Source: Acidobacteriota bacterium
Lineage (GTDB): Bacteria; Acidobacteriota; Terriglobia; Acidiferrales; UBA7541
Assembly (NCBI GenBank): GCA_003223255.1
Contig: QHYJ01000087.1
Span: 1 to 41,316, forward strand
Direction: 5' to 3'
DNA: 41,316 bases
Shown: positions 27,204 to 29,643 of the stretch, piece after piece
Layout: each line of letters begins with the position of its first letter
How positions within the stretch are numbered: the first letter of the stretch is position 1
Made by a program: the position numbers and the translations under genes
Notes under the pieces: model-generated
Database searches by the model: none
Told to the model about the DNA's origin: nothing
The model's input: only the letters and a program-made list of their open reading frames with translations

Positions 27204-27824
27204 ATGAACCGGTGCCTCTCTCGAATCGCAATACTCGCAAGCCTCGCAACGGGTCTTTCCCTGCCTGCCGGAGCCGCCAACTCCAACTGGCAGATTGACC
27301 CGCAACATTCATCGGCGCAGTTCGCCGTGCGCCACTTGGGTCTTTCCACCGTCCGCGGCGCGTTCAGCAAGCTCAGCGGAACGATGGTGCTCGATGACCA
27401 GGACATCAGTAAGTCGAGCGTGGAAGTAAGCATCGACGTGAATACCGTGGATACGCGCGAACCCGATCGTGATAAGGATTTACGCAGCGAGCGCTTCTTT
27501 GACGTGGCCCACTTCCCTACCATGACTTTCAAATCGAAGAAGGTGGAACAAGTCGTGCCAGGAAAGCTGCGCGTCACCGGCGACCTGACCATTCGCGGCA
27601 CAACCAAAGAAGTGGTGCTGGACGTGGACGGGCCGACCGCTCCGATAAAAGATCCCTGGGGCAATCAGCGGGTGGCAGCCACAGCGACCACGAAAGTCAA
27701 CCGGCAGGACTTCGGCGTGAAATGGAACGCCAAGCTCGATAACGGCGGCGTCGTGGTTGCCGACGACGTGAACATCACCATCGACGTGGAGATGGTCCAA
27801 AAAGCGGCGAAATCCGGCGACTAG
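27204..27824 (+). CDS. YceI-family periplasmic lipocalin-like protein
   Basis: 206 residues. A signal peptide ends near GAANS, followed by the YceI beta-barrel: WQIDPQHSSAQFAVRHLG, then GTMVLDDQDISKSSVEVSID, RSERFFDVAHFPTMTF, GDLTIRGTTKEVVLDV and ADDVNITIDVEMV at the end. YceI proteins bind long isoprenoid chains, and some respond to stress. AAGGAAGGAAAATAAG precedes the ATG. Placement behind a marR gene with its own operator suggests induction by a small ligand such as a phenolic or an oxidant; this is inferred. Confidence 0.92.
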   Translation: MNRCLSRIAILASLATGLSLPAGAANSNWQIDPQHSSAQFAVRHLGLSTVRGAFSKLSGTMVLDDQDISKSSVEVSIDVNTVDTREPDRDKDLRSERFFDVAHFPTMTFKSKKVEQVVPGKLRVTGDLTIRGTTKEVVLDVDGPTAPIKDPWGNQRVAATATTKVNRQDFGVKWNAKLDNGGVVVADDVNITIDVEMVQKAAKSGD

Positions 27825-27926: not shown

Positions 27927-28532
27927 ATGCACAAAGCTGCAGTAACGGAATACCCCGTACACGAACTTATCCGCAATCGCTGGAGCCCGAGAGCTTTTTC
28001 CGACAGACCCGTCGAACCAGCCGTTCTCGCCAGCCTTTTCGAAGCCGCCCGCTGGGCCGCGTCCAGCTTCAATGACCAGCCTTGGGCTTATCTCGTGGCC
28101 TCCAGGGACGACAAAGAGAATTTTGCCAAGATGCTCGGCGTTTTGGTGGAAGGCAATCAGAAATGGGCAAAAGACGCTCCGGTATTGGCCCTTTCCGTGG
28201 CCCGCAAGCACTTTCATCACACCGGCAAGCCGAACCCCGTGGCTGTACATGACGTCGGCGCAGCCAATGCACAACTGACCGCCGAAGCAACCTCACGCGG
28301 CCTGCTGGTTCACCAAATGGCCGGCTTCTCCCACGAAAAGGCTCGGCTGGCTTTCGGGATTCCTGAAGGTTGGGATCCTGTCTCCGCTATCGCTATTGGT
28401 TATCCCGGGGACCCGCAAATTCTCCCCGAAGATTTTCGAAAGTCGGAGTTAGCACCGAGGACCCGTAAACCGATTCGTGAATTCGTGATGAGTGGCAGCT
28501 GGGGACATACTGCTCCGTTCGCTGCCAAATAA
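27927..28532 (+). CDS. Nitroreductase-family FMN oxidoreductase
   Basis: 201 residues. The N-terminal NRWSPRAFSDRPVEPAVL is the FMN phosphate-binding start of the nitroreductase fold. AARWAASSFNDQPWAYLVAS follows, with the conserved SSxNxQPW motif. GYPGD near residue 155 belongs to the C-terminal part. It should use NAD(P)H to reduce nitro or quinone compounds; its natural substrate is unknown. Cytosolic. Start ATG 27927. The next gene (DedA) begins 28 bases after its stop. Confidence 0.88.
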   Translation: MHKAAVTEYPVHELIRNRWSPRAFSDRPVEPAVLASLFEAARWAASSFNDQPWAYLVASRDDKENFAKMLGVLVEGNQKWAKDAPVLALSVARKHFHHTGKPNPVAVHDVGAANAQLTAEATSRGLLVHQMAGFSHEKARLAFGIPEGWDPVSAIAIGYPGDPQILPEDFRKSELAPRTRKPIREFVMSGSWGHTAPFAAK

Positions 28533-28560
28533 TCGAGGAGACAGGACCTCAGCTCCCGCC

Positions 28561-29127
28561 ATGCACCGCGCCTTTGACTTCCTCATCCACCACGGACACG
28601 CCGTGCTGTTTGCCTGGGTTCTTGTCGAGCAACTGGGCGTACCGATTCCCGCGATGCCTCTACTCCTTGCGGCCGGCGCACTAGCCGGCACGGGACGGCT
28701 GAATTTCTTCACCTGCCTTCTGTTCGCGGTGTTGGGGGCGCTAACCTCGGATTCGGTGTGGTTTCAACTCGGCCGTCACAAAGGCATCAAGATTTTGCAA
28801 CTGCTCTGCAGGATTTCTCTCGAGCCGGATTCCTGCGTGCGGCGAACCGAAGGCATTTTTTCCAAGCAAGGGGCGCGTTCGCTTTTGGTGGCCAAATTTC
28901 TCCCCGGCCTGGGGCTGGTGACGCCGCCGCTTGCCGGAATTTTTCGTATGCGCTTCCGGCGCTTTCTACTGTTCGACGCAATCGGATCAATGCTGTGGGT
29001 CGGTGCGTTTCTTGGTCTCGGTTACGCTTTCTCTGGCGAGATCGAACGCATTGCGGCGCAACTAGCATCGCTAGGCGGATGGTTGCTGGCGGTGTTGGTT
29101 GGAGCGTTGGCTGCGTACATCGGATAG
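28561..29127 (+). CDS. DedA-family membrane protein (SNARE-associated), lacking its usual rhodanese tail in frame
   Basis: 188 residues, with several membrane segments. The re-entrant LVEQLGVPIPAMPLLLAAGA (about 20-40) and the conserved FLPGLGLVTPPLAGIFRMRF with Arg (about 120-140) mark the DedA/VTT fold. DedA proteins move phospholipids such as undecaprenyl phosphate across the inner membrane in known cases. The frame stops at the TAG 29125-29127 directly after GALAAYIG. In relatives I recall, this point leads through a basic linker into a rhodanese domain; here that domain follows at once in another frame, so a deletion of the linker is likely. The start ATG 28561 has GAGGAG rather far upstream. 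Confidence 0.85.
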   Translation: MHRAFDFLIHHGHAVLFAWVLVEQLGVPIPAMPLLLAAGALAGTGRLNFFTCLLFAVLGALTSDSVWFQLGRHKGIKILQLLCRISLEPDSCVRRTEGIFSKQGARSLLVAKFLPGLGLVTPPLAGIFRMRFRRFLLFDAIGSMLWVGAFLGLGYAFSGEIERIAAQLASLGGWLLAVLVGALAAYIG

Positions 29128-29129
29128 AG

Positions 29130-29435
29130 TTGAAACAAAAAATCGATGCGGGCGAACCAGTCACCATCGTGGACTTGCGCCATTCCTTGGACTTTGAAGC
29201 CGAGCCGGAGACCATTCCCGGTGCGCTGCACATCGAGGCTAAAGAACTTGAGGAAAAGGACCGCCGCCTGCCGCGCGATGGCGAAGTGGTGCTCTACTGT
29301 ACTTGACCAAACGAAGCCACCAGCGCCCGTGTGGCGCTGCTCCTCAGAAAGAATGGGATCAGGCGCATCCGGCCCTTGCAAGGCGGCTTGAATGCGTGGC
29401 GCGAGCGCGGCTTCCCCTTGGCCACCGCGCTGTAA
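29130..29435 (+). CDS. Rhodanese-domain protein with in-frame TGA, candidate selenocysteine
   Basis: Open from TTG 29130 (no good ribosome site): KQKIDAGEPVTIVDLRHSLD, then IPGALHI and GEVVLYCT, a rhodanese fold up to the active-site loop. The next codon is TGA (29304-29306). After it the same frame goes on without any break as PNEATSARVALLLRKNG, RRIRPLQGGLNAWRERGFPL and ends at TAA 29433-29435, which is the normal rhodanese end. Relatives of the DedA-rhodanese type have Cys at the TGA position (YCxCPNE). So the codon may read selenocysteine, next to the catalytic Cys two residues before. A suitable hairpin follows at 29321-29339. Alternative: one TGC-to-TGA mutation. 101 residues if read through. 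Confidence 0.6.
29321..29339 (+). promoter_or_regulatory. SECIS-like hairpin downstream of the in-frame TGA
   Basis: CAGCGCC-CGTGT-GGCGCTG forms a perfect 7-bp stem with a 5-base loop. The loop begins 21 bases after the TGA, and its second base is G. Known bacterial SECIS elements have a short loop with a G among its first two bases, about 16-37 bases after the UGA. The fit is good but such small hairpins also arise by chance in G+C-rich DNA. Confidence 0.45.
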
Positions 29436-29643
29436 GCCAATTGGTCTACGCCTTTATAATAGAGCGCCAAGTTGAGAATCTTTCCGCTGGGAACCGAAAC
29501 GCGCCGCTGCGAAGGATTGTTCTTCTGTCTGACGGTTAAGGGTGAACGGTTAACGGCCAACGGTGAACTGTCGACTGCGTGTCCAGCGCGGTCGAACGGC
29601 CGGATCCTTCTCCCACTAACCACGGGTCGCGAGTCAGTTCGAG

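Follow-up and report, generated by a model that had tools for sequence, protein, structure and literature searches.

Rhodaneses in which selenocysteine (Sec) stands two residues past the loop cysteine are already catalogued as NF041203 (rhodanese_LYCAU, given in its entry as the CxU form of COG0607), and fusions of a DedA membrane protein to a rhodanese occur within COG0586, where the part of PMC10127716 (2023) that treats them calls the link between the two domains unclear; PA1209 of Pseudomonas aeruginosa is presented as such a fusion in PMC12893004. We analyzed a window of 41,316 nucleotides from an Acidobacteriota soil bacterium, in which a rhodanese reading frame next to a DedA domain contains an in-frame TGA (Table 1).

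NF041203 was the best NCBIfam match of the rhodanese domain in the window, of six fusions, and of one stand-alone protein tested, and it has the rhodanese domain and the CxU loop in common with the window. It differs in being a stand-alone model of 126 positions, whereas the fusions add an N-terminal DedA domain, and its cut-off of 115 bits was not reached by the window domain (77.1), the six fusions (70.5-87.0), or the stand-alone TGA member L058 (108.1). The published COG0586 fusions show the same order, DedA then rhodanese, and the Nitrospira members that we found are Cys versions of the window's family. It is their descriptions that set the published fusions apart, in that the relevant parts of PMC10127716 and PMC12893004 mention no Sec; the window's family differs from them further by two invariant DedA cysteines and by the absence of Asp51 and Arg136 equivalents, a comparison outside which PA1209 lies. 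TsoB (NF045694, rhodanese/DsbD fusion-like) also joins a Sec rhodanese to a membrane module but, as outlined in PMC13188914, has two Sec in a UxxxxU arrangement and another partner domain; the window domain scored 12.3 bits against its cut-off of 805.

The YghB-type DedA undecaprenyl phosphate (UndP) flippases share the VTT domain with the window's family, and section 6 of PMC10127716 names Glu39, Asp51, Arg130, and Arg136 of YghB as essential for flipping. In an alignment of 51 of the 76 fusions (A4; a further alignment, A5, comprised 46 domains), the Glu39 equivalent was retained in 47/51, while Asp51 was found in 0/51, mostly with hydrophobic residues in its place, Arg130 was Lys in 51/51, and Arg136 was found in 0/51, with Ser, Gly, or Asn in 49/51. 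The family has the VTT domain of a COG0586 UndP flippase without the full set of essential residues; another DedA protein in the window's genome, L166, keeps all four.

Searches of the open PubMed Central literature turned up no description of Sec in a DedA protein or of a Sec DedA-rhodanese. The observation is real. An earlier note on this DNA had supposed that a Cys/Sec pair in such a domain near a DedA protein would be new; the CxU rhodanese and the DedA-rhodanese are each known, the former through NF041203, and it is the Sec DedA-rhodanese combination that appears to be new. This apparently undescribed selenoprotein architecture, which standard gene callers would truncate at its Sec codon, offers a handle on the DedA-rhodanese fusion. 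An older link between DedA and selenite handling, reportedly drawn by Ledgham in 2005 and taken here at second hand from a citation and a review, makes the selenium connection testable.

Table 1. Features of the locus in window coordinates, with the evidence for each.
Feature	Position	Strand	Evidence
YceI-like gene	27204..27824	+	PF04264, 175 bits
Nitroreductase family gene, directly upstream	27927..28532	+	PF00881, 76.6 bits
DedA (VTT, PF09335) domain	28561..29127	+	ORF 28492-29127; 58.5 bits vs cut-off 33.9
61-nt deletion point	29126..29127	.	Alignment A3: only the window row is gapped, over 61 columns
Rhodanese domain (PF00581) with in-frame TGA	29130..29435	+	52.8 bits vs cut-off 22.2; pLDDT 87.8
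TGT, Cys57, first of the CxU pair	29298..29300	+	Structure alignments
TGA, probable Sec59 of the CxU motif	29304..29306	+	62/81 rows TGA, other 19 TGC/TGT; machinery in genome
Putative SECIS hairpin, 7-bp stem, 5-nt loop CGUGU	29321..29339	+	Fold and row comparison

The in-frame TGA and its probable reading as selenocysteine

The translation of 29130-29435 runs LKQKIDAGEPV...VVLYCT, then TGA, then PNEATSARVALLLRKNG...LATAL, and closes with TAA, leaving 42 sense codons between the two; the frame passes through the TGA to a normal domain end, just as the earlier note had stated. With the TGA read as Sec, the CxU loop of the window domain is CTU (Cys57-Thr-Sec59). Among 30 gp2 TGA rows, the differences at codon positions 1/2/3 were 0.194/0.089/0.50 upstream of the TGA and 0.195/0.146/0.50 downstream of it (codons +12 to +39). 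Such similar values on both sides indicate that protein-level evolution continues beyond the TGA.

A scan of named genomes gave 386 confirmed loci, of which 80 were kept (for L122 and L159, with two regex hits, the longer-frame hit was used, and the short L093 was retained). They come mostly from Acidobacteria MAGs, with others from Rokubacteria, Methylomirabilota, and Nitrospira. When the window was added, the column that holds the second loop Cys of relatives had TGA in 62 of 81 rows and TGC or TGT in the remaining 19, that is, a conserved in-frame UGA with Cys as the alternative, and at the place that had been predicted for it. Within the genus (36 genomes, the window's included), a close match with one internal TGA was present in 30 genomes, a close match without an internal TGA in G001, G003, and G031, and no match in three. 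The motif survey fitted 38 of 45 loci, 33 with TGA and 5 with TGC/TGT; of the other seven, L059-L061 carry TGA at the corresponding codon, L063 carries Cys there, and the last three are rhodaneses of other kinds. These two sets overlap with the 81 rows, and the counts are not separate samples.

Class-wide, at E <= 1e-16, at least 256 of 399 genomes had a match, with TGA rows in several families among the matches listed. A second subfamily occurred in 46 of 299 genomes, with TGA in 13 of the 46; the loci of 30 of these 46 genomes were read, and 26/30 fit the motif (13 TGA, 13 Cys). L188, L192, L194, and L196 of this subfamily fell outside the regex and were left out of the counts; all four have Cys at the Sec column. 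TGA members of the fusion occur in Acidobacteriota, Rokubacteria, and Methylomirabilota. A tree of 76 fusions (four of the 80 named rows, with fewer than 255 upstream codons, and the window row were left out) required at least five Sec/Cys changes, gain and loss not being distinguished. The record of L103 is titled Betaproteobacteria, and its locus is gp2-like acidobacterial; it is probably mislabelled.

All four components of Sec decoding that the earlier note had suggested looking for were present in the window's genome (6.66 Mb in 428 contigs, 97.3% complete): selA (472 bits), selB (360 bits, cut-off 242), selD (350 bits, cut-off 125), and tRNA-Sec (64.9 bits with the Rfam model, cut-off 47), the last also called by ARAGORN as tRNA-SeC with anticodon tca. 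Of 14 well-known control genomes, two each were above the cut-off for selA, selB, and selD and five for tRNA-Sec, so the Rfam model is not very specific and its match is weak taken alone. The selD gene (L163, G000:C2:40475-41437, where G000 is the window's genome) has itself an in-frame TGA at the active site, in the motif G-TGA-AAK, which is an independent sign of Sec decoding in the same genome. At E <= 1e-40, selA was detected in 56 of 61 relatives, and it is present in all three same-genus Cys carriers; at this threshold none was found in G026, an 85%-complete MAG that carries the TGA gene, or in G050, a Cys carrier.

The machinery, the TGA/Cys column, and the hairpin comparison given below all support the proposal that had been made for this codon. 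We conclude that the TGA of the window, kept by relatives, is very probably read as selenocysteine (probability about 0.9), with SelB and the hairpin predicted to insert Sec and so to give the rhodanese domain a CxU loop, a reading that is strongly supported by comparison. Alternatively, the TGA could be a normal stop codon, or an error of sequencing, with a frame past it that is due to chance or to overlapping coding sequence; in favour of this, the HU and M50 genes of the window do end in TGA. However, the codon is common to dozens of genomes of several phyla, amino acid-level constraint persists past it, and the frame closes at the normal end of the domain; comparison among relatives contradicts a stop or an error, and we rejected both as exceedingly improbable. 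Reassignment of TGA to another amino acid such as Trp or Gly, for which we found no evidence, was rejected as equally improbable: Cys is the only alternative to TGA at this column in the rows read, neighbouring genes end in TGA, and the Sec machinery is present.

The hairpin downstream of the TGA

The hairpin CAGCGCC-CGUGU-GGCGCUG has G as its second loop base, starts its loop 21 nt past the TGA, and folds with -12.5 kcal/mol. Folding confirmed the SECIS-like element of 7 bp that the earlier note had pointed out, and its stem, loop, base, distance, and energy all lie within the bSECIS constraints of Fig. 2 in PMC13188914 (loop 3-9 nt, stem 4-16 bp, MFE <= -7.5, G in the first two loop positions, and UGA-to-loop 16-37 nt). 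Its stability by itself was not unusual, as 33 of 200 shuffles folded equally well (z -0.95). Single-sequence folding being unremarkable, its energy is not usable as proof, and the case beyond chance rests on the comparative evidence. An Rfam scan of 28400-29600 gave 0 matches up to E 1.

Compared among relatives, the hairpin was kept in TGA rows and relaxed in Cys rows. In the former, codon +6 was AGC in 61/62, +7 was GCC and +10 was GCG in 62/62, +8 was CGT or CGG in 62/62, and +9 was GTG in 60/60 rows with Val; in the latter, AGC was found at +6 in 17/19, GCC at +7 in 12/19, and GCG at +10 in 12/19. Differences by codon position at +6 to +10 were 0/0/0.051 in the 30 gp2 TGA rows, and this near-zero third-position change indicates that synonymous change is suppressed in the hairpin. 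The mean number of pairs formed was 6.74 of 7 in TGA rows vs 4.0 expected under synonymous codons, and Cys rows were also above expectation (5.74 vs 3.89).

The groups were told apart by five core pairs, which were intact in 61/62 TGA vs 8/19 Cys rows of subfamily I (L129 being the TGA row that misses one pair) and in 13/13 TGA vs 0/13 Cys rows of subfamily II; the rows share ancestry, so Fisher values for these counts are not true probabilities. Three TGA rows of subfamily II (L169-L171) keep their core pairs through a G-C to A-U double change, which alters both amino acids too. Folding of the whole segment was barely beyond synonymous controls and separated the groups weakly (mean z -0.74 for TGA and -0.35 for Cys rows; p <= 0.05 in 11/62 and 2/19, respectively; p = 0.42 for the window), and the loop G failed to separate them, being present in 62/62 and 13/13 TGA rows and in 17/19 and 12/13 Cys rows. 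Covariation of the outer pair was observed in 48/62 against a permuted mean of 36, and was not significant on phylogenetically independent pairs, which were too few. L121, the sister of a TGA row on the tree, has TGT at the Sec position and all seven hairpin pairs intact; either Sec was recently replaced by Cys here or the base was miscalled.

The DedA fusion and the copy in the window

The reading frames of most relatives make the rhodanese domain the C-terminus of a predicted DedA membrane protein: 76 of the 80 named loci have at least 255 in-frame codons upstream, and the DedA motif S/T-C-V/I/A-R, present in 59/80, lies always exactly 178 residues before the Sec/Cys. The DedA domain that the earlier note had placed near the rhodanese is present, but in most relatives it is part of the same protein and not merely adjacent. 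Across the 51 aligned fusions, DedA residues Cys87, Cys96, and Lys116 are invariant, as is Cys271; position 273 has either Cys or Sec, which the alignment does not distinguish (C in both cases). Secondary structure was taken from the AlphaFold prediction for the fusion (pLDDT 83.3, pTM 0.69). The order of the helices, combined with the re-entrant topology that is usual for DedA and was assumed here, would bring Cys87 and Cys96 to the side of the rhodanese domain, which we infer to be cytosolic.

Compared to five close relatives (L082-L086), the window lacks 61 nt between 29126 and 29127, so that the DedA frame closes early, at TAG 29125-29127, with the rhodanese left out of frame; in the relatives aligned with the window DedA the frame continues into the rhodanese. 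TTG 29130, 2 nt past the DedA stop, is a possible restart codon. Judged from its sequence, the window copy may be split, defective or dead, or misassembled. We consider it possible, with the balance leaning against it, that the family is a genuine selenoprotein and the copy in the window is decaying or split, its rhodanese depending on the weak restart at TTG 29130. The frameshifting loss speaks for decay, as do the open frame of 285 codons (281-419 in 29 other same-genus TGA rows, at least 320 in most) and the lack of a second copy in the genome, where the three other hits are 32-35% identical. Against this, the rhodanese part keeps its loop, its hairpin, and the full domain length, the gap of 2 nt from stop to restart is as in translational coupling, and an assembly error of the MAG is possible.

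Upstream of the fusion, tblastn matched YceI in 29/80 and nitroreductase in 31/80 of the named loci, counts to be read in view of the many loci that are truncated; the spacing to the fusion was mostly constant, and a few loci were arranged otherwise (e.g., L129). Between 27100 and 29700, the scan for sigma-70 promoters found 0, and there were 3 terminator-like sites vs 3.6 expected.

Fold and possible chemistry of the rhodanese domain

The window domain belongs to PF00581 by its profile score above the cut-off and by its rhodanese fold. Its model matched the rhodanese domain of 3tp9 with Z 14.7 and rmsd 1.6 over 94 residues; the top structural match was 3flh (Z 15.3), titled only lp_1913, and the word rhodanese is in the titles of many of the best PDB matches, while others go by protein number only. 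In the alignments with 3tp9, 5ve3, 6pfz, and 3gk5, the loop Cys corresponded to Cys57, with a gap of about 2 residues in the loop, while both domains of 6mxv, the best hit, aligned without gaps and put residue 59 on the loop Cys. The structure alignments therefore disagree, and either Cys57 or Sec59 may be the main nucleophile; because of the two 6mxv domains, we no longer take Cys57 to be the clear catalytic residue.

We tentatively propose, at somewhat under even chances, that the Cys57/Sec59 pair acts as a reductase of persulfide or a similar substrate via a selenenylsulfide. SelB with Sec-tRNA would be recruited by the hairpin at 29321-29339 and Sec59 inserted; one member of the pair would then take up sulfane sulfur, as persulfide or perselenide, or meet another oxidised substrate, and attack by the other would free the reduced product and leave a Cys57-Sec59 selenenylsulfide. 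A thiol partner, for which the two invariant DedA cysteines are candidates, would then reduce this bond again. The usual rhodanese loop pattern, CxxGxR, is absent from this loop in the alignments, which fits a different use of the pair, in peroxidase-like chemistry, metal binding, or true sulfur/selenium transfer. PMC9312934, in the part that bears on this point, gives antioxidant defence as the role of almost all selenoproteins of known function and likens most predicted selenoproteins to thiol oxidoreductases, which also favours such a use. On the other hand, both profile and fold make the domain as a whole look like any other rhodanese; nothing here is decisive, and we give this alternative the same standing as persulfide reduction.

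Building on the proposed reductase, the CxU rhodanese and the DedA cysteines could form a chalcogen or electron relay by which Sec chemistry would drive or gate the passage of a substrate through a DedA domain that has lost UndP flippase residues, an idea that we regard as unlikely. If it were true, the DedA/VTT superfamily, from which to our knowledge no selenoprotein is known so far, would have its first, and the unexplained DedA-rhodanese fusion would gain a function.

Other rhodaneses with loop TGA codons were also seen among the relatives. L199, L200, and L201 (3 of 61 relatives) encode rhodanese-like proteins whose loop, FY-TGA-x-TGA-P (UxU), contains two in-frame TGAs; both are retained at 88-89% identity, and two of the three have a 7-bp downstream hairpin in the minimum-energy fold; this UxU protein had no match in the window's genome. 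L062 and L065 are rhodaneses with a hydrophobic N-terminus and a TGA directly past FY, at the expected catalytic Cys, and they resemble the forms catalogued, by their entries, as having Sec at the catalytic site.
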